Part shown: piece after piece, positions 18,130 through 40,817 of the stretch
Layout: each line of letters opens with the position of its first letter
Position numbering within the stretch: the first letter of the stretch is position 1
Assembly: GCA_020247005.1 (NCBI GenBank)
Contig: JADCJN010000204.1
Coordinates: 1-42,166 of the forward strand
DNA length: 42,166 bases
Reading direction: 5' to 3'
DNA from: Silvanigrellales bacterium
Lineage (GTDB): Bacteria > Bdellovibrionota_B > Oligoflexia > Silvanigrellales > Silvanigrellaceae
Position numbers and translations under genes: made by a program
Notes under the pieces: generated by a model
Database searches by the model: none
What the model saw: only the letters and a program-made list of their open reading frames with translations
Told to the model about the DNA's origin: nothing

Positions 18130-19134
18130 ATGAAAAAAATTTTCATCGTTGCAGAGATCGCACAAGCCCACGACGGGAGCATCGGGATTCTGCATTCGCT
18201 TGTTGAAGCCCTCGGACAGACGGGAGTAGACGCTATCAAGTTCCAGACCCATCTCGCGGATTTCGAATCAAGTCCGCTTGAGCCTTTCCGAGTTCCCTTT
18301 TCATACGTCGACAAGACCCGCTTCGACTATTGGAAGCGAATGGAACTCACGCCAGACCAATGGAGTGAGCTCCGCACCCATTGCGGCATGGTCGGAACCG
18401 AATTCATGAGCTCGCCCTTCTCCTGCGCGGCGGTGGGGCTTCTCGAAAGACTCGGCGTCCAGCGCTACAAGGTGGGTTCGGGTGAGATCACCAACACCCT
18501 ACTGCTGGATCGCATCGCTTCCACGCGCAAACCCGTTATCCTGTCCAGCGGCATGAGCGATCTCGCCGAGCTCGAAGCAGCTTACCGTTTCCTGCAAATG
18601 CGCGAAATCGACGTGTCGGTGCTCGAGTGCACCTCAACCTACCCCACACCGGCGGATGAAATTCGACTGAGGAACATCCCGTGGCTCAGGGAACGGTTTC
18701 AATGCCCGGTAGGCCTCTCAGACCATTCCGGAACGCCGTGGCCTTCCCTCGGCGCAGTGGCCATGGGAGCAGAAGTGCTCGAATTCCATGTAACCTTTGA
18801 CAAAAGAATGTTCGGCCCAGACGCTTCATCATCCTTGACCATCAACGAAACAAAGAAGCTCGTCGATGGAGTTCGCTTCCTCGAGAAAAGCCTTGCCGCT
18901 GAGCCAGGCAAGGAACTCAGTCCGACAGTCGCTCGCTTAAAGCCCATCTTTGAGAAAACCCTCTGCGTGACTGAACCGACGAAAGCTGGCACACCAATCC
19001 GGCTCGAGATACTGGACGCCAAGAAACCAGCGGACCAAGGCATCCCGGCATCTCGTTACAGAGAAGTTATCGGCCGCCGGGCTCGACTTAACCTGGAAGC
19101 CTTCCAATTCATAACCTGGGAGGATCTCGCATGA
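18130..19134 (+). CDS. neuB: Nonulosonic acid synthase, NeuB family
   Basis: A 334-aa TIM-barrel synthase that condenses phosphoenolpyruvate with an N-acetyl-hexosamine (ManNAc, or 2,4-diacetamido-2,4,6-trideoxy-mannose in LegI) to give a nine-carbon nonulosonic acid. Typical family features are IVAEIAQAHDG at the start, AIKFQTH, EFMSSPFS, YKVGSGEI, SSGMSDLAE, LECTSTYPTP and GLSDHSGT. The C-terminal SAF/antifreeze-like domain (~280-334) ends RARLNLEAFQFITW. Length is normal. No good Shine-Dalgarno precedes the ATG. The TGA overlaps the neuC start (ATGA). Whether it makes Neu5Ac or a 5,7-diamino acid such as legionaminic acid is open; the nearby 4,6-dehydratase and aminotransferase make the second worth testing. 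Confidence 0.9.
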   Translation: MKKIFIVAEIAQAHDGSIGILHSLVEALGQTGVDAIKFQTHLADFESSPLEPFRVPFSYVDKTRFDYWKRMELTPDQWSELRTHCGMVGTEFMSSPFSCAAVGLLERLGVQRYKVGSGEITNTLLLDRIASTRKPVILSSGMSDLAELEAAYRFLQMREIDVSVLECTSTYPTPADEIRLRNIPWLRERFQCPVGLSDHSGTPWPSLGAVAMGAEVLEFHVTFDKRMFGPDASSSLTINETKKLVDGVRFLEKSLAAEPGKELSPTVARLKPIFEKTLCVTEPTKAGTPIRLEILDAKKPADQGIPASRYREVIGRRARLNLEAFQFITWEDLA

Positions 19135-20294
19135 AGCGCAAGATTGCCGTCGTCATAACTGCACGGGCGAGCTACGCTCGAATTCGCACAGCACTCGAGT
19201 CCATCGATGCACATCCCGACCTCGAGCTTATTCTCATTGCCAGCGGGTCTCTGGTGCTCGAGCGTGCCGGAAACGCAGTCAAGGTCATCGAAAAAGACGG
19301 CTTTAGCTTTGCCGAAAGAATCTACATGGTTGTCGAGGGCGAGAACCCTGAGACCATGGCAAAGTCCGTCGGCCTGGGCATCGTTGAACTCACAACTGCT
19401 CTCAGCAGATTGAAACCCGATGCGGTGATTAGTATCGCCGACCGATTCGAGACCATTGCGACCAGCATCGCAGGCTCGTACTTGAACATTCCGGTGGTGC
19501 ATATCCAGGGTGGAGAAATTACAGGATCCATAGACGAAAAAGTGCGGCATGCCTCCACAAAGTTCGCCACCCTCCACTTCGTCTGTACCGAGCTCGCGCG
19601 CCAGCGAGTAATCCGTATGGGCGAAGACGGACGCTTCGTGTACAATGTCGGCTGCCCCTCTATTGACCTTGCGATTCGAAGTCTCAGCCTACCCCCGCTT
19701 GGCAATGAAGAACTCTACGGCCGCTTTGGCGGCGTGGGGGAGACAGTCGACGTTGCGAGCGATTTCATCATTTTAATGCAGCACCCTGTCACAACAGAGT
19801 GGAGCTCCGCCTACGCGCAAATGGAATCGAGCCTCGAGGCGGCATACGCTACAGGCATGCCCGTGCTTGCCTTCTGGCCGAATATCGACGCTGGCGCCGA
19901 TCAGGTTTCGAAGGCCATCCGAGTATTTCGGGAGCGTGTTAAGCCGCTGAACTGGCATTTCTTCAAGAACCTCCCGCCCGAGGACTTCCTGCGCCTTCTC
20001 CAAAGATGCAAGTGCATCGTGGGCAATTCCTCGGTGGGCATACGCGAGTGCTCGCTGCTTGGAGTGCCTACGGTGAACATCGGCGATCGCCAGGCTGGAC
20101 GTGAACGTGGCAAGAACGTCGTCGACGTTGACCATACCGTTGACAAAATTCGAATTGGCATCGAATCTCAGGCACGTGTGGGCCGATACGCTCGGGACCA
20201 GCTTTACGGTACGGGTGACGCTGGCAAGAAGATCGCAAGCATTCTCGCCTCGCTGCCGAGCTATCCGAATGAGAAGAGGTTCATCGACTCATGA
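19131..20294 (+). CDS. neuC: UDP-GlcNAc 2-epimerase, hydrolysing (NeuC/LegG family)
   Basis: A 387-aa GT-B-fold epimerase. It hydrolyses a UDP-N-acetyl-hexosamine and inverts C2 to release free ManNAc, or the 6-deoxy-diamino analogue, for the NeuB enzyme. Features are TARASYARI at the N-terminus (NeuC form TGTRADYG-like), SIADRFETIA, VVHIQGGEITGSIDEKVRHA, MQHPVTTEW, and the UDP-binding end NSSVGIRECSLLGVPTVNIGDRQAGRERGKNV. These separate it from the non-hydrolysing WecB class, one of which lies at 37945-39048. It is coupled to both neighbours through ATGA overlaps, which gives stoichiometric NeuB-NeuC-NeuA production. The substrate is not decided by motifs I can read. Confidence 0.9.
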   Translation: MKRKIAVVITARASYARIRTALESIDAHPDLELILIASGSLVLERAGNAVKVIEKDGFSFAERIYMVVEGENPETMAKSVGLGIVELTTALSRLKPDAVISIADRFETIATSIAGSYLNIPVVHIQGGEITGSIDEKVRHASTKFATLHFVCTELARQRVIRMGEDGRFVYNVGCPSIDLAIRSLSLPPLGNEELYGRFGGVGETVDVASDFIILMQHPVTTEWSSAYAQMESSLEAAYATGMPVLAFWPNIDAGADQVSKAIRVFRERVKPLNWHFFKNLPPEDFLRLLQRCKCIVGNSSVGIRECSLLGVPTVNIGDRQAGRERGKNVVDVDHTVDKIRIGIESQARVGRYARDQLYGTGDAGKKIASILASLPSYPNEKRFIDS

Positions 20295-20995
20295 CTGAAG
20301 GCGCCACTCCTCGCGTCCTTGCGCTTGTGCCCGCACGCGGCGGCTCAAAAGGGATTCCCCGTAAAAACCTTGTTGAAGTGCACGGGAAGCCGTTAATCGC
20401 TTGGACCATCGAACCCATGCTTAGTTGCCTGAATTCCGGATTACTCGTCGAAGGAGTCATTTCCACTGACGATGACGAGATCGCATGCACTGCATTCAAG
20501 TTCGGCGCCCGAGTCCCGTTTATTCGCCCGCCCGAACTAGCCTCCGATGCAGCAAAGAGCTTAGACGTTATCCTGCACGCACTTGACTTCTTTGAGGAGC
20601 GCGGCTGCGGGTTCGATTCTGTAATTCTGCTTCAGCCAACGAGTCCTCAGCGCACAGCCGAGGACATCCGCTCTGCTCTCCGCGTCTTCCACGAGGAAGG
20701 GAGAGATTCTCTCATCAGCGTGTACGAGGAGGACCACGTAAACGAGCTGATGATGTACCGCAAAGGAATCGGCAACGCAGGGAGTCCACTTTCGCCGTTT
20801 CATAACAAGGGCATCCGAAGGCAAGATAACGGGCCCCGCTACGTTCGCAATGGAGCCATATACATCTCTTCGAAAGAACTCCTCCGGAGAGGGACTATCA
20901 TCGGTGACGAACCTACACTCTTCGTTATGCCTAGAAATAGATCCATCAACCTCGACTCTATGGCCGACCTAGAGCTGCTTAGGAGGTCGTGGTGA
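20291..20995 (+). CDS. neuA: CMP-nonulosonate (acylneuraminate) cytidylyltransferase
   Basis: A 234-aa nucleotidyltransferase that activates the nonulosonic acid with CTP to the CMP-sugar donor. The P-loop-like LVPARGGSKGIPRKN is at residues ~12-26. ISTDDDEIA (~60-68), ELASDAAKS, LLQPTSPQR and RNGAIYISS are the standard NeuA motifs, and INLDSMADL sits near the end. Length (about 230 aa) fits the single-domain form without an esterase extension. The ATG overlaps the neuC stop. The 3' end carries AGGAGG (20981-20986), which is well placed for the small ORF that starts on its stop codon. CMP-donor use implies a dedicated transferase among the glycosyltransferases of this locus. Confidence 0.9.
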   Translation: MTEGATPRVLALVPARGGSKGIPRKNLVEVHGKPLIAWTIEPMLSCLNSGLLVEGVISTDDDEIACTAFKFGARVPFIRPPELASDAAKSLDVILHALDFFEERGCGFDSVILLQPTSPQRTAEDIRSALRVFHEEGRDSLISVYEEDHVNELMMYRKGIGNAGSPLSPFHNKGIRRQDNGPRYVRNGAIYISSKELLRRGTIIGDEPTLFVMPRNRSINLDSMADLELLRRSW

Positions 20996-27046: not shown

Positions 27047-28777
27047 TTGGAAACTTCTCATGGCCTCGGCGCCGTTCGCCCATTCCTGAAGAACGAAGCG
27101 GGCAACCTGCTGCTCCTCGCGTGCTCGGGCGTGTGGCTCGCAGTATCGCTCGCAGCGGCCCTTCGGCACCATCTCGCTCTTGCGCCGGATGTCGCCACTG
27201 CGACCGCATTCATGCTCACAGCACTGCTCGCCGCTCTCACCTGGCTCCGCGGACTTCAATTCGAGGCCCATTTCGGGTCCCGAGCGTTAGCCTTCGCGGC
27301 CCTCCTTTTCGCAATTGTTCTACTTTCGCAGTGGCACCGAGATTGGGGCCCGTTCGTGTCGACAGGCCGGTTCGCGGGAGGCGACGCAGGGAACCACATT
27401 GTCCTGCGTGACCATTTTCTCAACGGAAAACCTTCGGCCTACAACGGCTTCACGGCGCTTTACGTTTCCACCTGGCTCCTCGAATACACCACCGGCATGC
27501 CACCCGCGAGCTCCTTTGCCATTGCCTTATACGCGGGACTTTTCATCCACGTTGCAGTGTTTGCGTCCTTCCTAGCAAGCGGGCTGTCTTCCATCAGGAG
27601 TTTCTCGCTAAGGGCGGCGCTCATCGCTGCAAGCGTCAGCGCCCTGTGCGTGCTCACGCTCGTTCCCTTCGCGTATTACCAGGCGGAGGGATTCTATGCG
27701 CATCTCGCCACCCTTGCGCCCGCTTCGCTCTCACTCTGGTTCTTCTGCCATTGCCGCGTAGGGCTGTTGGGCCGATGCTTGGCTGCCGGCCTCGCTGCCG
27801 TCGCCTTGCGCTTCACCTACGGGCTCAACCTTGCCGACTTCCTCGCGGCCCTCGCTCTAACCTTCGCACATGTCGTCATCATGGAGCCAAAGGACGGGGC
27901 GCAGACATGGACCCGGCCCTTCCACACGGGCGTTACACTAATCGCTCTGCTTGGCGCACTAGCAGCCTATAAAGCCCTTTGGCCTGTGGCGTTCGACGCG
28001 GGTGGTGGTATCCGATGGACCAACATGGGCCCACTCGACCTCGCCTTTCTACCGCTGTCGCTCGCGTCCTTTGTATTGCTTGCAAAGGGGCGCATGGATT
28101 TCGGACTGACGCTCGCATGTTCACTCGGCATGGTCACTGGCGTCGTTCTGCTCCTCCACGCGGCAGCGGGACTTCCCCACCTCTTTTATTACTTTAAGTA
28201 CCCATTCACCCCATTGGCTATTGTCGCTGGGGCGTCTCCGCTCTTTCTGGCGCGCTGCCTGAAGCTCGAGTCCCTAGCCTGGAGGACGACGTCGATCACG
28301 CTCTTTTTGCTCGTGATCGGGCTCGGAGCCTGGGGGTATGCACCGTACCTGGAATTTTGGACGCACAGGTTCACAGGCGACCGCAGTAAGCGCGCCATCG
28401 ATCGGCTCGTGGAACCAGCCATCGTCGCGCATATCGTCGCAACGCTCGAAAAACAGGGTCGCCGATTCGGAGGCTACTACGATCCTATCTGGGCATATTC
28501 GCACTTCATGAACTCCTCCCTTGGAAACGTAGAGGCGAGGAGGTTCGCCCATTTAGGTCACTTCCGCTCTGGTTCCTACGTCACCCCAACGGAATCGACC
28601 TGCAGTTTCTGGCGCGATCTCGGCGAGGCCAACACACTTTATGCCGAAACGGACGCCGTACTGGCCGCATCCGTTAGCGCTCGGCTTTCGCGCCTTCAAA
28701 CCGAAGCTGGGGTCACTTGCTCGAGCATCCGCGTGTCGGACAGTTCGTTCGAAACTCTTTGCACACTGTGTCCATGA
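27047..28777 (+). CDS. Polytopic membrane protein, GT-C glycosyltransferase candidate
   Basis: A 576-aa protein with about 11-13 hydrophobic segments from residue 20 to ~440, then a soluble C-terminal domain of ~140 residues with several Cys. The loop RFAGGDAGNHIVLRDHF (108-124) sits after the third helix, where GT-C enzymes carry their catalytic Asp, so I propose a GT-C transferase. I do not recognise the exact family. It starts with TTG at 27047, because an in-frame TAA lies at 27020-27022 and no ATG or GTG intervenes; GGCGGA lies seven bases upstream. It closes the plus operon and ends 17 bp from the convergent DUF2304 gene. A nearby DPM1-like enzyme could supply its polyprenyl-phosphate donor. 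Confidence 0.6.
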   Translation: METSHGLGAVRPFLKNEAGNLLLLACSGVWLAVSLAAALRHHLALAPDVATATAFMLTALLAALTWLRGLQFEAHFGSRALAFAALLFAIVLLSQWHRDWGPFVSTGRFAGGDAGNHIVLRDHFLNGKPSAYNGFTALYVSTWLLEYTTGMPPASSFAIALYAGLFIHVAVFASFLASGLSSIRSFSLRAALIAASVSALCVLTLVPFAYYQAEGFYAHLATLAPASLSLWFFCHCRVGLLGRCLAAGLAAVALRFTYGLNLADFLAALALTFAHVVIMEPKDGAQTWTRPFHTGVTLIALLGALAAYKALWPVAFDAGGGIRWTNMGPLDLAFLPLSLASFVLLAKGRMDFGLTLACSLGMVTGVVLLLHAAAGLPHLFYYFKYPFTPLAIVAGASPLFLARCLKLESLAWRTTSITLFLLVIGLGAWGYAPYLEFWTHRFTGDRSKRAIDRLVEPAIVAHIVATLEKQGRRFGGYYDPIWAYSHFMNSSLGNVEARRFAHLGHFRSGSYVTPTESTCSFWRDLGEANTLYAETDAVLAASVSARLSRLQTEAGVTCSSIRVSDSSFETLCTLCP

Positions 28778-28794: not shown

Positions 28795-29148
28795 TCATCT
28801 TGAGTCGCTTTCCGGGACAATTTCCACCACGCTGGTGAGGGCATCCTTCCGAGCCAGATCGGTTATCTGGCGCTCGAGTGCCGCAGTGCGAGCCCTGCTC
28901 AAAAACAGTTCGCGAATGAGCACAACGGTTACAATGTAGAGCACCAAGTCGACAGGACGGCCAACCCCAAGAAGCTCGGCGAGCTCGAAGAAGGGTGCCG
29001 TGTACAGCGAGGCGGCGCCCGCTCCAGTGAACAAGAAAAACATCGTCCACCATGCCTTGCGCGCATGGGCACCTAGCATCATGGCGTCTAAGGATAGCAA
29101 GGCCGCAAGCAATACGACGAAAACAAATGTGAAGGGTTTAATTTCCAC
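28795..29148 (-). CDS. DUF2304 small membrane protein
   Basis: A 117-aa protein with three hydrophobic helices (~7-25, ~32-52 and ~60-78) and a charged, probably coiled-coil C-terminal tail rich in R/E/L. This is the DUF2304 layout. Members commonly sit next to a DPM1-like GT2, as here, and are thought to assist or anchor that enzyme; the biochemical role is not established. I start it at GTG 29148, which gives the usual family length and an 11-bp overlap with the GT2 gene; ATG 29193 would add 15 residues. It is the last gene of the GalE/WecA-like/GT2 group. Confidence 0.7.
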   Translation of the reverse strand: MEIKPFTFVFVVLLAALLSLDAMMLGAHARKAWWTMFFLFTGAGAASLYTAPFFELAELLGVGRPVDLVLYIVTVVLIRELFLSRARTAALERQITDLARKDALTSVVEIVPESDSR

Positions 29149-29899
29149 TGAAAAGGAAGACCTTAATGAGATCGTGGAGGATTCGAACTGCACCCAAATT
29201 CGACTGCCCCTTCCGAAGAGTTTCTTCAGTATATGCGATTGAAACTGGAACTTCAGCGTATCGCGCCCGATGTCGTTTCACGATGAGCTTGATCTCTGTC
29301 GCATGGGCCATCCTATTCTGCCTCAATCTGAGCACCTCTGCGAAGGAACGGTTGAATACCCGGTACCCGTTGTGAGCGTCGTTCAACGCGAGGCCGGTCA
29401 CAAACCGCTCAAATATAAGAGCCGCATAGAGCAAGAGTTTACGCGTCATAGGCACTTCTAACGCGACTCCCTTACCAAATCGATTTCCAAAAACAATGTC
29501 GGCACCTGAAGATGCCATCTGACCTAAAAACTGGCGCAAGTCGGCCACGTCATGTTGGCCATCGCCATCCATGGTGATGAAATAGACCGTTTTAGGATCC
29601 GCCAGGCCGATGCGCACGCCCGTTTCAATGGCTGCACCCTGCCCGAGGTTAATTGGATGAGTCACAACGAACAGACGAATGCGCGGATCGGGTTCGGTGC
29701 GCAGCCTCACACGGCTCACCGACTCTGCGGAGCCATCGTCGACGATAATGAGCTTGAATCCTGAAACGTGGTCGAAACCTGTATCATTGAGGAGAGACAC
29801 AAGCTCCAATTCGAGGCGCTCGATGAGCCGCGGAAGCCGTGCCATCTCGTTGTAGCAGGGAATTATGATCGCCGCGATCTGGTTCATTCTGTCCTTCAT
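29138..29899 (-). CDS. DPM1-like GT2 (polyprenyl-phosphate glycosyltransferase)
   Basis: A 253-aa GT2 enzyme without membrane helices, like dolichyl-phosphate mannose synthase. IIIPCYNEMARLPRLI opens the fold, LIIVDDGSAES is near 50-60, NLGQGAAIETG near 86-96, and the metal site is TMDGDGQHDVADL (~112-124). A C-terminal SIAYTEETLRKGQSN follows. It probably loads a hexose onto undecaprenyl phosphate, making a donor for extracytoplasmic GT-C transferases such as those at 2156-4477 or 27047-28777. The ATG overlaps the stop of the WecA-like gene (ATGA), and a DUF2304 partner follows. Confidence 0.85.
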   Translation of the reverse strand: MKDRMNQIAAIIIPCYNEMARLPRLIERLELELVSLLNDTGFDHVSGFKLIIVDDGSAESVSRVRLRTEPDPRIRLFVVTHPINLGQGAAIETGVRIGLADPKTVYFITMDGDGQHDVADLRQFLGQMASSGADIVFGNRFGKGVALEVPMTRKLLLYAALIFERFVTGLALNDAHNGYRVFNRSFAEVLRLRQNRMAHATEIKLIVKRHRARYAEVPVSIAYTEETLRKGQSNLGAVRILHDLIKVFLFSGN

Positions 29900-31707
29900 C
29901 CGTAGACGACACGCAGACCGAAGACCGAGACCAAGAGAACGTACAGAAGCGCCCCTGATGAAAGGATTTTCAATCGATACACGTTGCCCTTGTGGCGCTT
30001 CTGCATGGTCTGAATCGCGGCGAACAATACCAGGCTGCGGAGTCCGATGACGTTGAGTCGGTGCTCGGACCTGTAGGGCTCGGGCACGAGCAGAAGCAGC
30101 ATCGGCAAGAGGATCATCAGGAAATCACTCGGCGTAACGATAAAGTACTGCCGGCGAAAAGTAATCACTATGAATAGCAACGTACTGATAGTGAGCCACA
30201 AGAAAACATAATTGTATATAAATTGTATATTCAACCGCTCGCCGCCCCAGATAATCCAAATGGAGTTGGCGTTATTAGCAACGAGAACTACAGTAACAGC
30301 TGAAGCTATAGCCACAGAGTCGAGGAAGTCTACCTTGCTGCGGGGAACGAAGATGCTCATAAGCAGAATGGTCATCACGATCGCTGCGATGAAGCCTACC
30401 ATCCGAGGCGGCACGCCCGCGAAGACCGGCGTCGCCAGGAGGATCCCATAGATTATGTACCTGTTCGATTTTTCCCAGACGCGAATTAGGCGCGAGAGTG
30501 TAGGACCGCTGTTAGCGTCGAACGCGAACAGCGCCCGTTGGGTGCGAAGCCGCAAGAGGAAGCCCTCATCGAGCCGGACCACAAGTGGCATCACTAAGAA
30601 GAGAAACCCAGCGCTAAGGTAGGGTACCCACCAGAGCTGATAGGCGGGGAACGCCACGGGTAGCACGCCAGTCACAGCGAACACCACGGCCACAAAATAT
30701 ACTGCCGCCACGCTCTGTGAATGTGACAACCCCAACTTCAGGAGCCCGTGGTGAAAGTGACGCTTGTCAGGCGCCATAGGCGAAATACCCGCCTTCACGC
30801 GACCCGTGATGACCCAGGCCGTGTCGAAGATGGGGACCGCCAAACAGAGCACAACCGTTATGAGTGGAACGCTTTCCACGACAGCCGGACTCGGCTTTTC
30901 GGCGAACGTCAACCAGCCGGGGGCAAGCGCGAGCCCCTGCCCGTTAGCCACGAGCAAGAAGAGCACACCAGTCATGAAACCGAGCCAATTACTCCCTCCG
31001 TCGCCCATGAACATCGTTGCCGGGTAAGTATTGTATTTTAGGAAGCCAATCAGAGCACCGATCATGGGCAGGGAAAGCGCGAGCAGAAGATAAAGATCGC
31101 CCGTGTTGAGAAAATGAAGGTAACTCAGGAAGAGGACCGCGATGAGGACCACCCCTCCGGCGAGTCCATCGAGCCCATCGATCATATTGATGCTGTTGAT
31201 GGCACCCACGACTACGAAGACGCTGAACGTGAAACCGAGGATTGGCGGCACGGCTATCCCGTAGCCTGGAGCGAGATAGAGGTACTCGAGTCCGAGCCCA
31301 GCGCTCCCGACCGCGAGCGCGGCGGCGCCCAACTGCACCAGCAGCCGCAGCTTCGCCGAAAGAGGCCGGAGATCATCGGTGAGACCAGTGAGGAACATAA
31401 CTATTGAGGCGGTGAAAACACCCGTGAGATTGCCCGGCACGGCCGTGAAGAGCAGACTCAAAAAGAAGCCGCTAACGATGGCCACACCACCAAGCCGCGG
31501 GATTGGTCGAGTATGGATCCTGCGGGGTGGATCCGAAGGTCCGTTTGATGGGGATGGCACATCTCGCACCGCCAGGGTTGCGCATCCAGCCGCGTCCGGA
31601 AAGTCGTACAGTTTGCGCACTTGCGCGAACCGCATTATCGCTGGCATCAGAGCCAACGAACAGACCAAAGACGCAAAAAAAGCGAGGACGAGTTGAAGGC
31701 TAAGCAC
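29896..31707 (-). CDS. WecA/MraY-family polyprenyl-phosphate HexNAc-1-phosphate transferase with an extra C-terminal membrane domain
   Basis: A 603-aa protein. Residues 1-~380 are a complete WecA-type transferase with about 11 helices. Metal and substrate motifs are present: TGLTDDL (Asp111-Asp112), NSINMIDGLDGLAGG (171-185), FMGDGGSNWLG (233-243) and DKRHFHH (314-320, the family HIHH-like motif). Such enzymes move HexNAc-1-P from a UDP-sugar to undecaprenyl phosphate. Residues ~400-603 add about five to six further hydrophobic segments not found in ordinary ~350-aa WecA. The start is GTG at 31707, with AGGTAGG just upstream. It is the second initiating transferase of the locus, unrelated in fold to the PglC-like one. 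A broken second copy of its 5' end lies at 33474-33599. Confidence 0.88.
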   Translation of the reverse strand: MLSLQLVLAFFASLVCSLALMPAIMRFAQVRKLYDFPDAAGCATLAVRDVPSPSNGPSDPPRRIHTRPIPRLGGVAIVSGFFLSLLFTAVPGNLTGVFTASIVMFLTGLTDDLRPLSAKLRLLVQLGAAALAVGSAGLGLEYLYLAPGYGIAVPPILGFTFSVFVVVGAINSINMIDGLDGLAGGVVLIAVLFLSYLHFLNTGDLYLLLALSLPMIGALIGFLKYNTYPATMFMGDGGSNWLGFMTGVLFLLVANGQGLALAPGWLTFAEKPSPAVVESVPLITVVLCLAVPIFDTAWVITGRVKAGISPMAPDKRHFHHGLLKLGLSHSQSVAAVYFVAVVFAVTGVLPVAFPAYQLWWVPYLSAGFLFLVMPLVVRLDEGFLLRLRTQRALFAFDANSGPTLSRLIRVWEKSNRYIIYGILLATPVFAGVPPRMVGFIAAIVMTILLMSIFVPRSKVDFLDSVAIASAVTVVLVANNANSIWIIWGGERLNIQFIYNYVFLWLTISTLLFIVITFRRQYFIVTPSDFLMILLPMLLLLVPEPYRSEHRLNVIGLRSLVLFAAIQTMQKRHKGNVYRLKILSSGALLYVLLVSVFGLRVVYG

Positions 31708-31899: not shown

Positions 31900-32925
31900 T
31901 CAGTGCCGCGTCCAGAAACGCTCATTCCACCGGAGCGCGTCAGCGACACCTGCCTCGAGCGAAAATTCGGACTTCCAACCGAGGAGATTGCTGGCGAGGC
32001 CGGCATCGGCGAAGGCTCCCGCGACGTCACCCTGGCGCCTTGGCCCAACCCGCCATGGCACGGCGCACCCCACGGTTGACTCGAAGGCCTTGATCAATTC
32101 GAGAACCGTGCATCCCCGACCCGTTCCGAGATTCAAGACACGGTAGTCCGTCATAAGTCCTGAAAATCCCATCGACGCGTTCACGGGTGCAGCGAAGACG
32201 TCATCAAAGCGCCGGACAGCCAACATGTGCGCACGGGCCAGATCCCAAACGTGTATGTAGTCGCGGACAGCGCTCCCATCCCGCGTAGGCCAATCGCCCC
32301 CTGCAACCACGAATTCCCGCTCACGCCCCGCATGGACTGAAATGAGACGGCCGAGCGCATGCGACGGAAACCGCAAATGCTGACCTGTTCTAAGCTCAGG
32401 GTCGGCACCGATGGGGTTAAAATACCTGAGCGCCAGGGTCCTCAAACCATGAGACCTGGCGAAGTCGGAAAGGATAAACTCAGTCATCAACTTAGAGCGA
32501 GCATATGGACTCGCGGGCTCCACGGCTGCGTTCTCGTCCACCGCACCCCCAGTGGCGTCACCGTATACAGAAGCCGAAGAACTGAAGATGAATTTGCGGA
32601 CGTTGCTCGTGCGCAAGGTCTGGAGGAAGGCCAAGGTTCGCGAGACGTTGCACTCATAGTAGCGCCCCGGTTCGTTGATAGACTCGGGGACGTCGATGAG
32701 CGCCGCGCAATGGATCACAACATCGATATCGGGGTGGTCTCGGAGAATGCATCGGACGAGGGACGCGTCGGCAACGTCCCCCTCGTAGAAAAGGTGCCCG
32801 GCGGCAAACTCACGCCTTCCCGTCACAAGTGAATCCAAGATCACGGGCGTCATAGCCTCGTTCGCAAGAGCTGAACAAACAGTACTGCCGATGAACCCAG
32901 CTCCACCAGTTACCAAAACCTTCAT
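31900..32925 (-). CDS. galE: UDP-glucose/UDP-GlcNAc 4-epimerase, GalE family
   Basis: A 341-aa extended SDR that interconverts UDP-Glc/UDP-Gal (or the N-acetyl forms) via a 4-keto intermediate. VLVTGGAGFIGS (3-14) binds NAD. SSSASVYGD (115-123) carries the catalytic Ser, and YARSK (141-145) the Tyr and Lys. ALRYFNPIGAD, SAVRDYIHVWDLARAH and the C-terminal LGW end are typical of GalE. It supplies a galacto-configured donor for the locus. The promoter probably lies in the gene-poor region upstream, and a 192-bp gap without recognisable content separates it from the WecA-like gene, so that gene may have its own promoter. Substrate preference cannot be read with confidence. Confidence 0.9.
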   Translation of the reverse strand: MKVLVTGGAGFIGSTVCSALANEAMTPVILDSLVTGRREFAAGHLFYEGDVADASLVRCILRDHPDIDVVIHCAALIDVPESINEPGRYYECNVSRTLAFLQTLRTSNVRKFIFSSSASVYGDATGGAVDENAAVEPASPYARSKLMTEFILSDFARSHGLRTLALRYFNPIGADPELRTGQHLRFPSHALGRLISVHAGREREFVVAGGDWPTRDGSAVRDYIHVWDLARAHMLAVRRFDDVFAAPVNASMGFSGLMTDYRVLNLGTGRGCTVLELIKAFESTVGCAVPWRVGPRRQGDVAGAFADAGLASNLLGWKSEFSLEAGVADALRWNERFWTRH

Positions 32926-33006
32926 AGAACCACACTTCTTCCTTGCGACTCAACCGAACGAAAACAGCTCCAAACTGCACACCCAAGAAGCACTAGCTGA
33001 ACTGAT

Positions 33007-33132
33007 TCAACCCAAAAACTGTCGACCATCTCGCTGTTCTAGGCGATCGAGCTCGACCAGCAAACTTTGCATATTTAGCGCAAAACATTCCGCGTCACCC
33101 AATCTAGGAAACAAGAAAACTGCGACATGAAA
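33007..33132 (-). pseudogene. Possible C-terminal remnant of a glycosyltransferase
   Basis: On the minus strand the frame is open from just after a TGA at 33135-33133 to a TGA at 33009-33007, 41 codons. It includes LFPRLGDAECFALNMQ, then LLVELDRLEQRDG. The pattern 'FP.GDAE.FA..M..LL.....L' is common at the end of GT4 enzymes, where it forms the last helices of the donor domain. There is no start codon context, and the rest of a gene is missing. The resemblance is short and could be chance. Confidence 0.3.
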
Positions 33133-33473
33133 TCAAAATGCACATTATCAACCCGCATTGAATGGAACAATGCTGCCGTCAGTATCCTATGCCCCTGACC
33201 GGTAGACTCCCAGGTTTGAAGATACGGTGTCCGGCTCAGACGGAGAGCACTACAAGCACACTCAGCCCGAGCCAGTTTACAATCCACTGCGTCCCATTTG
33301 GACACACAAAAGGGTCGACTTTGCGGTCCGAACGCGTAAGGCAAACTCCAACCAAATTGGCTCCCAAAGGCTATGTGACAGCACCAGGGGCCCGGCACAC
33401 GCAAGGCGAATAATATCGTAATAATCTTCCCACGAAGATCAAATTCCACACTTGTCTGCGGCGAGGACGCTCC

Positions 33474-33599
33474 TCACAATGAAAACAATCCCAATAAGGA
33501 GTTACGCCCCAAAAACAGGAATCGGAGCACAAGCGGCATGAGTGCCAGTGAACACACCAACGATGTGGCGAAAGTCAGCATGAGTTGCAAACTCAGCAC
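33474..33599 (-). pseudogene. Truncated 5' end of a second WecA-family gene
   Basis: A minus-strand ORF starts at GTG 33599, with GGAGG about five bases upstream, and stops at 33474 after 41 codons. Its first ~26 residues align without gaps to the start of the intact WecA-like protein at 29896-31707. Both begin (V/M)LSLQL, and both contain SLVCSLALMP and an RF pair at the same spacing. At DNA level many third positions differ, so it is a diverged homologue rather than a recent copy. After 'LRF' the similarity ends abruptly; the rest of the gene, including every catalytic motif, is missing. It lies directly downstream of the GT2 gene at 33691 on the same strand, as if it had been the next gene of an older operon. 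Confidence 0.75.
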
Positions 33600-33690
33600 G
33601 ATGCCTCCGTCCGCGAAAAAGGTTGTTGTGATCTATTTGAGTGGAAAGGAATCTTGAGCAAACAGAAGGTAAACTGTTCTGTAGCCGAGT

Positions 33691-34695
33691 TCAAAGGCCT
33701 CCCGCTTTCCCAAGCCTTCCCCGCATCCCGTCCCAGGTTCCTCGCAGGCAGGCTGCAGACTTTTGAAAGAACCCCCCTTGTTCATGAGAAAGCATTTTGC
33801 ACTGCCAAAACAGGAACTTTATGCGCCACAAAAGGCAAAAGAACTTCCAGAAGCCTTGGGAGGCCTGAAGTTCAAGCCAGGTATGGTTGCGGCAAATGTA
33901 GTAGAGCCTGAGTGCAGAATAGTGTGGCAACCGCAGCCAAAGCTTCCGAAATCGCGACTGCACAATGCGGGTTTCACCCAAGGCATGTTTCATAGGAGCA
34001 CGAGGCACAACGACAACGCGAAACTGCGCACGCCGCACCTCCAGGCACATGGCGTGGTCGACACCATCTATGAACAAAGCGGGCCAGGGGAGGGCTAACC
34101 AAGGCAGGGCGGCCAAATTCACCAATGTGCCCGAGGTGATGGTGGCGTCGCAGTCATAGGGTTCGAGCGCGTAAGGCGATTCATCAGGAGTGTCGACGGA
34201 GGGAAGGGGTGCGCGCTGAGGCCTCACAAAGCGGAACTTTCGAAACTCAAGCCCGTGTAACGGCGCGCCATCGGGCTGCACCAGAGGAAGGCAACAGGCG
34301 AGCGCAACTCGAGGGTCACCTGCAACTTTTTTGAGCTCTGCATGCGCCTGAAAACTGGGCACGCTGTCTTGATCGAAGAGCCACAGGTGCGTGAAGCGCT
34401 GCTGCGCAGCCAAACAGAAGGCAATTTGTAGCGCACCTGAAATGCCGAGGTTTTCGGGATGATGTTCGTAAAAAAGTAAAAAACGGCTTTGCGAGGCGAG
34501 AGCCTCCACATGCTCTTGATGGGGGGATGGGGAGTTGTCGACCACCACAATGCCAGCAATGCTTTCCGTTTGTTTTTGAAGTGACTCAAACAACGATGCG
34601 AGGCCGCCGAGGTCGCCGTAGAGCGTCACCATGGCCAACGTGCGTGAGGCGCCTTCGGGGCGCTGCAGCGTGCTGACGGTCGAGGATTGAATCAT
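33691..34695 (-). CDS. GT2 glycosyltransferase, rhamnosyltransferase-like
   Basis: A 334-aa GT2 enzyme. TLAMVTLYGDLGGLASLFESL begins the GT-A fold after a short leader (usual form 'vvt.yn...l...l.sl'). IVVVDNSPSP (~50-60), HHPENLGISGALQIA (~78-92) and HLWLFDQDSVP (~103-113, the Asp-x-Asp site) match rhamnosyltransferases of the WbbL/RfbF type. TSGTLVNLAALP and FIDGVDHAMCLEVRR follow. The C-terminal ~60 residues are aromatic and basic, as in membrane-associated members. I start it at ATG 34695, because the frame upstream overlaps the control region of the divergent lipoprotein gene. It stands immediately upstream of the WecA-like remnant. Confidence 0.8.
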   Translation of the reverse strand: MIQSSTVSTLQRPEGASRTLAMVTLYGDLGGLASLFESLQKQTESIAGIVVVDNSPSPHQEHVEALASQSRFLLFYEHHPENLGISGALQIAFCLAAQQRFTHLWLFDQDSVPSFQAHAELKKVAGDPRVALACCLPLVQPDGAPLHGLEFRKFRFVRPQRAPLPSVDTPDESPYALEPYDCDATITSGTLVNLAALPWLALPWPALFIDGVDHAMCLEVRRAQFRVVVVPRAPMKHALGETRIVQSRFRKLWLRLPHYSALRLYYICRNHTWLELQASQGFWKFFCLLWRIKFLFWQCKMLSHEQGGFFQKSAACLRGTWDGMRGRLGKAGGL

Positions 34696-34833
34696 GTCTG
34701 GAATCTTTCCGAATTCACAAAGTCGTGTCAATGCGACCGAGCCCGGCAAGTCGTGCGCAGCGCAGCGGCTCCCGGTGAACCGATGCAATCCTTCGAGTGC
34801 AATTTGAAAGCCTGGGCATTGGGGAACGAAGAC

Positions 34834-36489
34834 GTGCGAATCGAATTTTTTCTAACGCACCAAAGAAAAGCCCGACATTGCAGTGGTATCGGCGTTTGCG
34901 CAAGCGCACTGCTTGTGGGTGTGTTGGGCTCGTGCAACCCCGCTCCCAAGGTTCTGGTCCACAGGGAAAAAGAACCTCCCGCCAGGGAAACCGACGCCTT
35001 CAAAACACCCTCGCACCAATGCGACAGTGTTCTTCCAGAGTCGGAGTCGGTGTTTTTACTTTCCGGTAAAGCCTACGAAAACGAGATGCGGAAGCTGTGG
35101 AACTGGACACGCCCGGACGGGCTTTCACCCGAGGCAGCCGCATCCGAGCGTTTGGTGGCTTTAGACGCCGAAGGGCAGTGCTTGAGTGAAAACCTCAGAA
35201 TGCACCTCGCGAACACATTTGCTTTGACCAAAGAACTCGCCAACGCGGCTTTGACACCCGAAGGGCCTGCCCTGGCCGACCTCTTGTCTGAAATTGAAAG
35301 GCGACCGGTGTCTGCCGAGGAGGTGGATGCCAAACGAACTGCCGCGCAACAAGAGGCTGTTTCTTTCAACGAGCACACGTTCATTTCCACTCTTCTTGGC
35401 CAGACCCTGACAGCACCCGCGTTCTTGCTCCCCCCAAAGCTCCCCCGCTCGCGTGGAGCTGAAATGCTGCAGTCCGCTTTGGGCCGAGCATCGCTTGTTC
35501 ATGCGTTCAGCTTCGCCCTCCAAGACGCCTCTGCACCCCCTTCGGACGTCAAACGCCTGAGTGCGCTGAAATCGTCTGCATTCAAAAATGCATTGAGCGC
35601 ATTGGCAGTGAAATGGATGGGCGAGGGGGCCTTCCATCGAAAAGCCATCGGCATTGCCGAGAGCTACCTGGGCATTGAAGCTTTGCGTTCCAATAAGGGC
35701 TCTTCGTTGAGCGAGGTGCAACGGCGCGAAATTCTCAGGGACTTCGACGACTACACCGTCCGCACGCTCCTTCAGCCCGGGTCCGGTTTTGCAAAATTCT
35801 TCACTCAGGCTGACTCTTTGTCGTCTCCAACCTTGGACAGCTTCCACCCCGATTCAAGCCTAGACGCCGACACGGGGCGTCATATTTGGCGCGCTGAAAA
35901 ACGAAAGGGTGCGCTCGGCCACCCTGCTTTCCTCATTGTTCACGCGAATTATGCGCAGCCTGATCCCGTGAAACGGGGGGTTGCCGTGTTGCAAAATATA
36001 CTTTGCATCTCGCTTCCTTCCCCGCCAGCCGACGCCCTTGAGCAAAAAATCCCGGACCCACCAGAGTCCACCAATCGCGAACGCTTCGAATTTTTGGCCA
36101 CGTTCCCTGCCTGCGCAAGCTGCCACCGGATTATAAATCCGGTGGGGTACTTATTCGAAGAATACGACCAGATCGGGCGGTTTCGGGCAATGGACGCAGG
36201 CAAACCCGTGGATGCGTCGGGTCATCTTCCCGATATGGCCGCGCTGGAAGGGGAAGCCATGCCACCCCGCATGCAAAGCATCGCGGACCTCTCGACATGG
36301 ATTTCACAATCGCGCAAAGCGAGAGGCTGTTTTGCCGAGAGGGTTCAAAAAACGCTTCTTCCCTCCTTTTCTGAAGGCCTCGCTGGCCCAACCCAAGCTT
36401 TTTTGGACACAGGAGATTTTCGCACGCTCGTTCTGAACAGCCTGTGGCACGCGGTCTTCACAGAAGACCACCCCGGAGACGCGAAATGA
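34834..36489 (+). CDS. DUF1592/DUF1588-type lipoprotein with a CxxCH heme motif
   Basis: A 551-aa exported protein. A hydrophobic segment ends in the lipobox LGSC, so Cys34 is the probable lipidation site. The middle contains ASLVHAFSFALQDAS and EILRDFDDYTVRTLL, diverged DUF1592-like regions. QPDPVKRGVAVLQNILC leads into the DUF1588 core FPACASCHRIINPVGYLFEEYDQIGRFR, where C427-A-S-C-H431 is a c-type heme-binding pattern. A DUF1585-like end follows. These proteins occur with DUF1552 partners in Planctomycetota and Myxococcota; their role is uncertain. Several starts are possible: GTG 34834 (GGGGA seven bases upstream), ATG 34783 or TTG 34687. I chose the one giving the shortest signal peptide. 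The stop overlaps the next start (ATGA). Confidence 0.75.
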   Translation: MRIEFFLTHQRKARHCSGIGVCASALLVGVLGSCNPAPKVLVHREKEPPARETDAFKTPSHQCDSVLPESESVFLLSGKAYENEMRKLWNWTRPDGLSPEAAASERLVALDAEGQCLSENLRMHLANTFALTKELANAALTPEGPALADLLSEIERRPVSAEEVDAKRTAAQQEAVSFNEHTFISTLLGQTLTAPAFLLPPKLPRSRGAEMLQSALGRASLVHAFSFALQDASAPPSDVKRLSALKSSAFKNALSALAVKWMGEGAFHRKAIGIAESYLGIEALRSNKGSSLSEVQRREILRDFDDYTVRTLLQPGSGFAKFFTQADSLSSPTLDSFHPDSSLDADTGRHIWRAEKRKGALGHPAFLIVHANYAQPDPVKRGVAVLQNILCISLPSPPADALEQKIPDPPESTNRERFEFLATFPACASCHRIINPVGYLFEEYDQIGRFRAMDAGKPVDASGHLPDMAALEGEAMPPRMQSIADLSTWISQSRKARGCFAERVQKTLLPSFSEGLAGPTQAFLDTGDFRTLVLNSLWHAVFTEDHPGDAK

Positions 36490-37853
36490 TCATGAACAGA
36501 CGCAAACTTTTGTCGCGCGCATTGAAAGCCTCGGTTTTCGGTCTGGCTGCGCATGGCATTCGCAATGTCTCTTTGGCCGACGGCGTCGGATCGCCTCGTC
36601 TTTTGTTTGTCTTCACGCCGTGCGGACACACTCCCGGCTGGCGGAAAGGACAGTCGGCAAAAAAAGTGGTGCTCGACCCCACGATGATGCCGCTTCAAAA
36701 GTACCAGGACAGAACAACGCTGATTGAAGGCCTCTCACTTGGCCATTTCGACTACGTGAAACTCAATGGTCATTGGGGCGCTTTGCACAGCCTTCTTACA
36801 GCGCGCAAGGCCGACACGGTGAAGGGCAATAGACCCGACCTCAGTGAGGCCAGCAGCGCCTCATTCGACCAAGTCATGGGGCGATTGATTGGGAAAGACT
36901 GCCCCTTGTCTGCAGTGGTGGCCGGTGGCCCGGAAACGTCGAACACCGTGGGACAGCTCTTATTAAGTTGGCACGACAAAGGCAGGGCGGCTTTGCCCAT
37001 TCACGATCCGAAGCTTCTTTATTTTCTCCTTTTTGGCACAGGCAGCAGCGAAACCGAGGCACACACCGATGCCTCGCGAAACGCAGCAGCGTGGGAAGCG
37101 GCCGTGGTGGAAGAGAATTTGCGCAACGCAACTTCACTCCTCCGGGAGGCTGCTCCCGAAGAGCGCCCTGTGCTCGAAGCCTATTTTTCTGCCTTCGAAA
37201 CCATGGCGGGCAGCATAAAGTCGACGCGAGAACGCGAAGCAAGCCAACGTTCGACTCGAACGGAAGACACGACCTTTTCGAATATGGCTGGGCTTACTCC
37301 CATTGCCGACATCGCTGGCCAAATGGACCTGCAGAGCAGGCTCCTGGCCGCGGGCCTCGCCTTTGAATCGACGCGTGTGGCCACTTACGTCATGGCACCT
37401 TCGCCCAGCTACATGGTAGTTCCCGGGGCCGACAAAGGACACCACTTCCACTCCGACTCCGAAGAACATTATTCCAAATTCGACACCTTTTACGCGGAGC
37501 GAATGAAGACGCTTCTCGATGCCCTGGACAGCTACCCCGAGGGCGACGGCACTGTGCTCGACAACACGCTCGTGGTGCAAATGTCAGAAATCTCTTGGCC
37601 ACCCCAGAACCACGTTCACGACAATTTACCGGTGTTTCTTTTCGGCGGACTTCCTCGGAAGACCCTTGCCATGGGGCAACACATCCACTTCCCGACCTTC
37701 GGCAAAGGGCGGGGGGCGATAAATGAGAATCCTTCGAACCGCCGCATCGGCGAGCTGTATTTGACCCTGGCTGAAGCTGTTGGCCACCCATTTTCGGGAT
37801 TTGGGGACGACCTGAACACGCGTGTTCTCAGGGAACTCTTGGCAGCGCGTTGA
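36486..37853 (+). CDS. DUF1552 family protein with Tat-type signal
   Basis: A 455-aa exported protein. The N-terminus MIMNRRKLLSRALKASVFG carries a twin-arginine pair before a hydrophobic stretch, suggesting Tat export in folded form, perhaps with a cofactor. The mature part shows the DUF1552 pattern: LLFVFTPCGHTPG, HWGALHSLLTA, SFDQVMGRLIG, YVMAPSPSYMVVPG, HHFHSDSEEHY and VVQMSEISW. Many conserved His/Asp/Glu residues resemble the metal-dependent sulfatase/phosphatase-like or DUF1501 group, but the activity is unknown. ATG 36486 overlaps the stop of the DUF1588 gene, and the two families co-occur in other genomes, so they very probably act together. A strong palindrome follows three bases after its stop. 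Confidence 0.8.
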   Translation: MIMNRRKLLSRALKASVFGLAAHGIRNVSLADGVGSPRLLFVFTPCGHTPGWRKGQSAKKVVLDPTMMPLQKYQDRTTLIEGLSLGHFDYVKLNGHWGALHSLLTARKADTVKGNRPDLSEASSASFDQVMGRLIGKDCPLSAVVAGGPETSNTVGQLLLSWHDKGRAALPIHDPKLLYFLLFGTGSSETEAHTDASRNAAAWEAAVVEENLRNATSLLREAAPEERPVLEAYFSAFETMAGSIKSTREREASQRSTRTEDTTFSNMAGLTPIADIAGQMDLQSRLLAAGLAFESTRVATYVMAPSPSYMVVPGADKGHHFHSDSEEHYSKFDTFYAERMKTLLDALDSYPEGDGTVLDNTLVVQMSEISWPPQNHVHDNLPVFLFGGLPRKTLAMGQHIHFPTFGKGRGAINENPSNRRIGELYLTLAEAVGHPFSGFGDDLNTRVLRELLAAR

Positions 37854-37944: not shown

Positions 37945-39048
37945 GTGATTCACGTCGTTATTGGCACCAAAGCCCAGCTCATTAAAATGGCACCGCTCAT
38001 GCTCGCCCTGCAAAAGGCAAGCGTCCATTACAATTTCATTTTTACTGGCCAACACCAAGAGACCATCAACGACCTCCGAGAGAATTTCTCGCTCAAGGCC
38101 CCCGACGTCACGCTTCATTCGGGCAAAGACGTCACGTCTCTTCCCATGATGCTCATGTGGATTCTCAAAATCCTATTCAACACGATTTTTCGACGCCACC
38201 GTATTTTTGATGGCGACACTTCGAAGGAAAGTGTTGTGCTTGTGCATGGCGACACCTTTTCAACACTCCTGGGCGCGTTGATGGGCAAAGTGGCTGGCAT
38301 GCGCGTGGGCCATGTTGAGTCGGGGTTGAGGTCTTTCAACCTTTGGCACCCGTTTCCGGAAGAACTCACAAGGCTGGCTGTGTTCCGCTTAAGCGATGTT
38401 TTTTACTGCCCCGGGCCTTGGGCTCTTTCGAATGTTGCAAAGTACAATGGCGAGAAAGTGGACACAGGGTACAACACCCTTATGGACGCGCTTCGCCTTG
38501 CAACCGATAGCTTCCAAGGTGCGGCATCGACAGGCACAGGTGAGCCGCTCTGCCCAGGTCATCCTTATTGCGTCATCACCATCCACCGGTTCGAAAACAT
38601 CTTTTCGCAATCCACGCTTGAAATGATTGTGGCCCTTGTCGAGCGCATTGCCTCCAAAGTGCAGGCCGTTTTCATATTGCACCCTGTCACGGAGCGCCGT
38701 TTGCGGGAATTTGGTTTGATGGAGCGAATGCGCTCGAACCGTCGCGTGGAATTGAGGCCCCGCTCCGATTACTTCACTTTCATGCGTTTGGTGCAGTCGT
38801 CGGAATTTCTCGTGTCTGACGGAGGCAGCAATCAAGAAGAAGCTTTTTATATGGGAAAGCCGTGTCTTCTGCTGCGACGTGCCACGGAACGTCAAGAGGG
38901 CATGGGTGTGAACACGGTTCTGAGCAACTATAACACGGACACCATCGACGACTTTCTCAACACTTACGAAACACTGTCTAGCCCTGCCCGTTACATGGAG
39001 CATTCTCCCACGGCACTCATCCTCGCTCATTTGCGGGAATCGCAGTGA
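37945..39048 (+). CDS. UDP-HexNAc 2-epimerase, WecB-like (non-hydrolysing type)
   Basis: A 367-aa GT-B-fold epimerase related to WecB/MnaA, which interconverts UDP-GlcNAc and UDP-ManNAc. VVIGTKAQLIKMAPL (4-18) replaces the usual GTRPExIK, a variant I associate with a sub-family of surface-polysaccharide clusters. VHGDTFSTLLGAL, GHVESGLRSFN, PFPEELTRL and SDGGSNQEEAFYMGKPCLLLR are the remaining epimerase motifs. Because the N-terminal Arg/Glu are changed, activity on UDP-GlcNAc should not be assumed; it could act on another UDP-amino sugar. It starts with GTG at 37945 and its TGA overlaps the GTG of the next gene (GTGA). It heads a three-gene plus operon. Confidence 0.75.
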   Translation: MIHVVIGTKAQLIKMAPLMLALQKASVHYNFIFTGQHQETINDLRENFSLKAPDVTLHSGKDVTSLPMMLMWILKILFNTIFRRHRIFDGDTSKESVVLVHGDTFSTLLGALMGKVAGMRVGHVESGLRSFNLWHPFPEELTRLAVFRLSDVFYCPGPWALSNVAKYNGEKVDTGYNTLMDALRLATDSFQGAASTGTGEPLCPGHPYCVITIHRFENIFSQSTLEMIVALVERIASKVQAVFILHPVTERRLREFGLMERMRSNRRVELRPRSDYFTFMRLVQSSEFLVSDGGSNQEEAFYMGKPCLLLRRATERQEGMGVNTVLSNYNTDTIDDFLNTYETLSSPARYMEHSPTALILAHLRESQ

Positions 39049-40817
39049 GCGCTCCCCCACTGAAAACGGGCAGGATGGCGGGCTGGAAGGCGGTTCTCGG
39101 CCTCACATTGAGTTTCGTGCTCGTGGGCATCTGCGTCTGGTTCGTTCTGAAGGATGCCAACACCCTTTCGCGCCTTGCAAACACCAATCCGCTGGGCATT
39201 GGGATTGCCTCGCTCTGCATGATAGCCTTTCTTTGGTCGAACGGACTCGTTCTGAATGAAATGCTTCGAGCCTGGAATGTGAGCCTCAAACCTCTCACTT
39301 CGTTTTCTTTGAGTGTCGTAACGAACGCAGGAAACACGTTCCTCCCTCTCTCTGCAGGCATGGGCCTGCGCGCGTTGTACCTTCGAAAAACGCTGGGAGT
39401 CCCTTTGCCTGCGTTTCTGGGCGCCTTGGCAGGCATTTATATCGTCAATTTTCTTGTTGTCTTTGCAACGGGCTTCGTGATGCTAGCGCTTCTGCGCGCG
39501 AATGGCTCTGCTCTTTCCCACTGGCTTTTGGTGGCATTTGGCATAGCCACTTCAGGACTTGCTTTTGTGGCCTTTGCACCTCTTGTGGCGCCTCGCTTCG
39601 CAAACAAAGGCTTGAAAAGGCTTTCAGTCCTGATGCCGGGTTCCGTCGCAAAGCGTTTCTTCAACATCTTCACCAGTTGGCAAGCATTGCTTGCCGACAA
39701 GCGCGCGGTAGGAACCATCGCGCTCTATTCCATTCTGAACGTGGCACTTTCCAGTGGTCTACTTTGGGGTAGCTTTTCCGCTCTCGGAGAATCGCTGTCC
39801 ATGGAATCCGCTCTCTTTCTGTCGGTGATGAACAGCCTCGCCATTTTCTTGAAAATAACACCTGGCAATTTGGGCGTGAATGAAGTTCTTCTGCTTGCAG
39901 CTGGCTCCACACTCTCTCTTGACCCTGGGCTTGTGGCCTTGGCTGCGGGAATATCTCGTGCCGTTCAATATGGAACAATGCTTTTCTTGCTGCCCTTTGG
40001 GCTTGTCTTTTTGTTCGGAGCGGGGTGGAAGGCCTCCTTGGCAGAAGCCTCCCACTCCATGCGAAAAAACGCATTCGCGACAAACACAGGGGAATCCGAC
40101 ATGACGCCTTCTTTGGGTTCACCTCCAAGTGAAAGTCATCGCAAGGCCTTGCACGGAAAAGAGTACGCGGAAGCTTTTGAGGCCAAGCAAGACCCCCAGC
40201 GCATTGGACGCATTCTGGAGCGCCTGTCCATTCCCGAGGGCGGACAAATATTGGATGTCGGGTGTGGCAATGCGCTCGCATTGGAATGGCTCGAGACCCT
40301 CACTCCGAACCGTATCGGCGGTTATACTGGCGTCGATTTTTCGGAAGAACTGCTTGCCTTCGCCCTCGCTCGCCAAAAAGCACTGGGCGCCCAGCATGCG
40401 CGCTTTTTCCAAGGCTCGTTGAAAGAACTTCTTTCAAAATTTGGAGCTTCTTGGGTCGACCTTGCCTTTGCCTTCGACGTTTCGGAACATGTGGCTGACG
40501 ACGAATGGCTCGAGGCCTGTAGGGATGTGCGCAAGGCGCTCAAACCTGGGGGCGAGTTCGTGCTCCACACTCCCAATGCGGGATTTTTTCTTGAACAGAT
40601 GAAGGCCCGCAATTTTATTGTGCGTCAGTTCCCAGAGCACATTGCTGTGAGAGATGCCAAACAGAACCTAGCGCTGCTCAAAGAGGCCGGATTCTCGCAA
40701 GTCACAATCCAAATTCTTCCCCACTACAACGTGCTGCGATATGTTCACCCTCTGACAAAACTTCCGGGGCTCGGACGTCTCTTCGAAGCCCGTTTGCTCT
40801 TGACGGCCACAGCATGA
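39045..40817 (+). CDS. Fusion: LPG-synthase-TM/UPF0104 membrane domain + SAM methyltransferase
   Basis: A 590-aa two-domain protein. Residues ~12-335 form the UPF0104 / lysylphosphatidylglycerol-synthase TM domain with about eight helices. Family marks are NAGNTFLPLSAGMGLRALYL (~86-105) and FLKITPGNLGVNEVLLLAAG (~267-286). Some relatives are implicated in moving or modifying lipid-linked sugars. A ~35-residue polar linker leads to a class I methyltransferase: QILDVGCGNALALEWL (~401-416), YTGVDFSEELL, AFAFDVSEHV and LKPGGEFVLHTPN. The two families normally occur as separate proteins, and I see no frameshift or internal stop at the joint. A methyltransferase anchored at the membrane could act on a lipid-linked glycan. 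GTG 39045 overlaps the WecB-like stop, and the end overlaps the GT2 start (ATGA). Confidence 0.8.
   Translation: MSAPPLKTGRMAGWKAVLGLTLSFVLVGICVWFVLKDANTLSRLANTNPLGIGIASLCMIAFLWSNGLVLNEMLRAWNVSLKPLTSFSLSVVTNAGNTFLPLSAGMGLRALYLRKTLGVPLPAFLGALAGIYIVNFLVVFATGFVMLALLRANGSALSHWLLVAFGIATSGLAFVAFAPLVAPRFANKGLKRLSVLMPGSVAKRFFNIFTSWQALLADKRAVGTIALYSILNVALSSGLLWGSFSALGESLSMESALFLSVMNSLAIFLKITPGNLGVNEVLLLAAGSTLSLDPGLVALAAGISRAVQYGTMLFLLPFGLVFLFGAGWKASLAEASHSMRKNAFATNTGESDMTPSLGSPPSESHRKALHGKEYAEAFEAKQDPQRIGRILERLSIPEGGQILDVGCGNALALEWLETLTPNRIGGYTGVDFSEELLAFALARQKALGAQHARFFQGSLKELLSKFGASWVDLAFAFDVSEHVADDEWLEACRDVRKALKPGGEFVLHTPNAGFFLEQMKARNFIVRQFPEHIAVRDAKQNLALLKEAGFSQVTIQILPHYNVLRYVHPLTKLPGLGRLFEARLLLTATA

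Follow-up and report, generated by a model that had tools for sequence, protein, structure and literature searches.

We identified, in the window (i.e., the whole stretch of 42,166 nucleotides that was analyzed, from a contig of an uncultured Silvanigrellales bacterium), an 84-bp scar that most likely represents a defunct 5' end left by a second and divergent gene of the wecA family and that most likely does nothing now. The sequence comparisons described below indicate that a divergent member of this 600-aa family very probably lay downstream of the glycosyltransferase (GT2) gene at 33691 and was truncated in an IS-associated rearrangement. All that survives of this second gene is its first transmembrane helix; the PF00953 catalytic domain, which spans residues 95 to 252 of the intact wecA protein, is absent from the scar. 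The scar and its surroundings are listed in Table 1.

Table 1. Features of the region around the wecA-family scar (window positions)
Feature	Position	Strand	Remarks
PpgS-like GT2, related to polyprenyl-phosphate sugar synthases	29138..29899	-	PF00535; NF058614 E 8.4e-50, below equivalog cut-off; overlaps wecA end
Intact 603-aa wecA-family gene	29896..31707	-	PF00953 E 7.9e-36, plus C-terminal membrane region
galE-type epimerase	31900..32925	-	TIGR01179 E 3.4e-93, above curated cut-off; upstream of intact wecA
Gene-free stretch from galE to scar (~590 bp)	32926..33515	.	No homologue besides the IS end; GC 0.46-0.51 (lower) outside the IS end
Left-end fragment of probable IS3-family (IS2-type) element (~62 bp)	33193..33254	-	Terminal repeat 33227-33254, outer end towards wecA scar
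3' tail of 41-aa frame to its stop, non-homologous	33474..33515	-	Lacks D35, P37 and D38, invariant in aligned family; chance identity past nt 84
41-aa open reading frame	33599-33474	-	GTG start; peptide VLSLQLMLTFATSLVCSLALMPLVLRFLFLGRNSLLGLFSL followed by a stop
Scar, homologous part: codons 1-28 (TM helix 1) from putative second wecA-family gene	33516..33599	-	20/28 aa, E 9.6e-7, z 9.4, codon-position bias, profile match
GGAGG ribosome-binding site of putative lost gene	33604..33608	-	Read directly from sequence
Rhamnosyltransferase-like GT2, looks intact	33691..34695	-	TIGR01556 E 3e-22, below cut-off; directly upstream of scar

The protein encoded by the intact wecA gene begins with VLSLQLVLAFFASLVCSLALMPAIMRFA and aligns with the scar peptide over 28 ungapped residues, 20 of which are identical; the BLOSUM62 score is 98. 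The best of 20,000 composition-matched shuffles of the remnant reached 50. With the remnant as the query against its own 4.28-Mb genome, the intact wecA was the only real match; the same query yielded no match better than an E value of 0.01 in 114 relatives, all from other genera. A profile built from full-length relatives detected the remnant at profile positions 1 to 26 (E = 1.8e-4). We also screened peptides read from start codons across all of the loci compared (n = 16,010). The window's own wecA ranked first (98), followed, as the next distinct hits, by the wecA-family starts of four relatives (63, 51, 48, and 39); one unrelated peptide, scoring 47, was present among the top scorers. The motif GCATC(C)GTG at the start is common to the scar and the intact gene. 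The homology thus goes well beyond hydrophobic composition, and the start at the scar is related to a working member of the family at the statistical significance expected of a pseudogene fragment. The first-pass annotation, which had noted from the letters that the minus strand at 33474-33599 resembles the start of wecA, is confirmed in this respect by the alignment, shuffles, genome search, peptide screen, and profile. It had also proposed that the idea should fall if the alignment was no better than that of random membrane-protein N-termini, and the scar clearly exceeds that level in both the shuffles and the peptide screen.

The extent given in that annotation holds for positions 33516 to 33599, which are homologous, and does not hold for positions 33474 to 33515, which are non-homologous and open by chance. 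Similarity extends only to residue 27, just short of the D-x-P-D motif found without exception across the aligned family, and DNA identity with wecA drops to chance level past nucleotide 84 as well as upstream of the ribosome site, bearing out the claim of an abrupt end. Within the scar, 53/84 bases match (63%), and the mismatches are distributed as 10, 3, and 18 over the first, second, and third positions of the 28 codons. Seven codons are identical, 13 differ synonymously, and 8 differ nonsynonymously (i.e., synonymous changes account for 13 of the 21 altered codons); dN is approximately 0.26, and dS is saturated, so that no estimate of it is possible. This codon-position pattern shows that the two wecA starts diverged long ago while being translated as proteins. 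The earlier statement that the scar is not a fresh tandem copy therefore holds, given the DNA mismatches, the codon pattern, and the saturated dS. No further remnant of the lost gene was detected in the six frames of the window (family profile at a lenient E value), in the rest of its own genome (intact protein as the query, E <= 0.001), or among translated gap peptides compared with 1.6 Mb of loci.

Full-length relatives of the 603-aa protein, most of them 43 to 47% identical to it, are present in roughly twelve related genomes, and each genome with the 600-aa family carries one full-length copy. The other matches are shorter and mostly cover the core catalytic region common to the MraY/WecA superfamily. 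The intact gene shares the PF00953 catalytic domain with the known WecA/MraY family (PF00953; TIGR02380; solved MraY structures 8g01 and 4j72) but differs in its length (603 aa versus approximately 350 aa in a standard WecA) and in its extra C-terminal membrane region, and it scores 113 on the WecA model, for which the cut-off is 326. This extra region comprises about 250 membrane residues that have neither a Pfam match nor a relative of solved structure; the two-part layout is kept in a dozen or so Bdellovibrio/Oligoflexales-related genomes and in one Spirochaetia MAG (L086). The window also contains an initiating sugar-phosphate transferase of an unrelated type (Bac_transf, 9164-9763), and the presence of both this and the WecA-type enzyme in 42 kb suggests that two glycan systems lie next to each other.

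The gap between galE and the scar contains an IS remnant that was absent from the first-pass annotation. Window positions 33193 to 33267 match positions 36220 to 36294 of another contig of the same genome (C106) over 75 bp (81%; E = 2.8e-13), and the two copies agree inward for 62 bp. The 28-bp terminal repeat begins with TG and recurs elsewhere in the genome: its core, TGTAGTGCTCYCCGTYTGAGCCGGACAC, occurs at exactly three genome places within 3 mismatches, whereas a reversed-pattern control gave 0. Outside the initial TG, the three repeat copies have nothing consistent in common. In C106, a transposase frame of the HTH_Tnp_1 type starts approximately 130 bp inside the repeat. A further contig (C26) carries an intact element composed of an IS2-repressor-like (IS2 TnpA-like) orfA and an IS3-family transposase orfB, and right after the orfB stop, read inward, lies TGGAGTTACCCCCGTGTCAACGGACACT, laid out like the repeat in the window. 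The association of the IS end with IS3-type orfA/orfB genes is thus seen in C106 and the related C26 element, and not within the window. Because of the C106 transposase frame and the similar end of the C26 element, positions 33193 to 33254 most likely represent, on sequence grounds, the left terminus of an element of the IS3 family (IS2 type) whose body has been lost. A search of the window for a second IS end or a target-site duplication revealed no second end, and the sequence is therefore considered a fragment rather than a complete element. The repeat was not found in 57 other genomes of the class and was seen only in its own genome; plasmid searches with the gap DNA and with the C106 copy gave no match. 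At its end, C106 carries IS66-type tnpB/tnpC genes beside a decayed IS3-type orfA (L080 4010-6678; the C26 element is L164 196-1376). C106 and C26 have 142 bp in common at 99% identity, and repeated IS copies therefore probably broke the assembly there. An open reading frame at 33075-33449 was rejected as a gene, having no significant family match and overlapping the IS fragment.

As stated in the first-pass annotation, the scar lies just downstream of the GT2 at 33691 in the same direction; the distance is 91 bp. The alignment of that GT2 with its best homologue (30% identical; genome G001) extends to residue 361 of the 365-aa frame. The annotation had suggested searching relatives for such a GT2 followed directly by a full-length wecA, and this arrangement was not found among the 114 relatives, all from other genera, or the 80 loci; the G001 homologue lies beside rml-type genes, followed by two unrelated paralogues. 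A GT2 directly precedes wecA in one relative (G012) and a sugar epimerase does so in another (G048). Neither GC nor GC3 changes at the supposed boundary (GC3, 0.59 to 0.68 on the wecA side and 0.61 to 0.64 on the GT2 side), and no undisturbed parental arrangement of a replaced cassette was found among the 114 relatives or 80 loci. The proposal of an older GT2-wecA operon cut by recombination and filled by a new block is accordingly borne out in part: the second gene start, its divergence, its abrupt end, the GT2 neighbor, and the lack of a conserved 41-aa frame in relatives agree with it, the IS-end fragment between the scar and the next gene lends it additional support, and a parental arrangement and a composition step are missing. 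An IS-associated deletion fits the scar as well as a cut by recombination does.

Several other observations concern the wider window. A PSCyt3 (DUF1588) and HXXSHH (DUF1552) gene pair (34687-37853) lies amid the polysaccharide genes, divergent from the GT2 at 33691. Genes for NeuB, a UDP-GlcNAc 2-epimerase, and a cytidylyltransferase stand in a row at 18130-20995, forming a nonulosonic (sialic-like) acid set, and a similar three-gene set is found beside the wecA relative in G031 (L071). An LPG_synthase_TM-type membrane domain is fused to a methyltransferase domain at 39045-40817, and a 576-aa plus-strand open reading frame with no Pfam match (27047-28777) is convergent with the wecA block. No Rfam match was found in the window, and a promoter and terminator scan performed no better than shuffles.

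We propose that the GT2 at 33691 was formerly followed downstream by a second member of the 600-aa WecA-type (polyprenyl-phosphate sugar-1-phosphate transferase) family, presumably full length and co-transcribed with this glycosyltransferase. The rest of the gene would have been lost in a rearrangement that left only the 5' end, and the IS3-family (IS2-type) end lying in the gap suggests a role for IS activity or for recombination around IS copies. Since 261 bp separate the IS end from the break, this role is only plausible, and the element may have been inserted later and independently. The galE-wecA-GT2 block across the gap would now supply the function and may have come in as a replacement. 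The truncation reading draws on the homology, the truncation, the old divergence, the IS fragment in the gap, the lack of any other remnant, and the single copy per relative; against it stand the shortness of the scar (84 bp), the distance between the IS end and the break, the absence of a GC or GC3 step, and the lack of a relative showing the undisturbed arrangement among those compared.

Saturated synonymous divergence with a conserved protein would fit two long-maintained paralogues as well as it fits alleles, and the genome could have kept two wecA-family genes for a long time before all but the start of one was lost, without any block coming in. We regard this as unlikely: every relative with the 600-aa family has a single full-length copy, which favors replacement of an allele or block over loss of an ancient paralogue. 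Replacement of the second wecA by the present galE-wecA-GT2 block thus appears to be the likelier of the two histories. An assembly artefact that misjoined wecA copies is extremely improbable; the assembly is fragmented (291 contigs), but the scar lies mid-contig and the copies, only 63% identical over 84 bp, offer no long exact repeat to confuse an assembler. Chance likeness of two membrane-protein N-termini, both of which are leucine-rich first transmembrane helices, has practically no probability left and is refuted by the shuffles (z = 9.4), the genome search (E = 9.6e-7), the predominance of the wecA family at the top of the 16,010-peptide screen, and GCATC(C)GTG in both starts.

It is very unlikely that the 41-aa frame encodes a functional small membrane protein, such as a regulator derived from the first transmembrane helix of WecA. 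The frame does have a start, a ribosome site, and a stop, is wholly hydrophobic, and lacks internal stops, but 28 codons are too few for the absence of stops to be meaningful, residues 29 to 41 match nothing, and no homologue of the frame as a short protein of its own was found in the 114 relatives, all from other genera, a search that the first-pass annotation had named as able to overturn its reading. We attach very little credence to the related ideas that the detached helix might still be translated as the 41-aa peptide and modulate the intact WecA, or that a recombination-prone start might be reused for cassette exchange.

Under the preferred reading, a second wecA-family gene truncated in an IS-associated rearrangement, the scar would be the trace of a single earlier rearrangement in the surface-polysaccharide genes of a sparsely sampled lineage with ties to Bdellovibrio and Oligoflexales. 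It links this rearrangement to IS3-family debris and adds a further instance of a process that is already well described. The finding is sound and small, an ordinary scar of rearranged surface-sugar clusters. In Salmonella O-antigen clusters, remnants of genes and of IS elements have been documented where blocks meet (PMC3715488). In group D2, an H-repeat/IS remnant lies at the D1/E junction (PMC3715488); the element here differs in being a probable IS3-family (IS2-type) end, and the likeness lies in a scrap of insertion element at a proposed block junction. The wzy remnants of groups B1 and D1 (PMC3715488) concern wzy rather than a wecA-type transferase, and sister serogroups are known to have the ancestral form intact, whereas our comparison set comprised genomes from other genera. 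The resemblance to these groups is nonetheless twofold: a truncated polysaccharide gene lies between intact genes, apparently after functional replacement, and IS fragments lie in the same interval.
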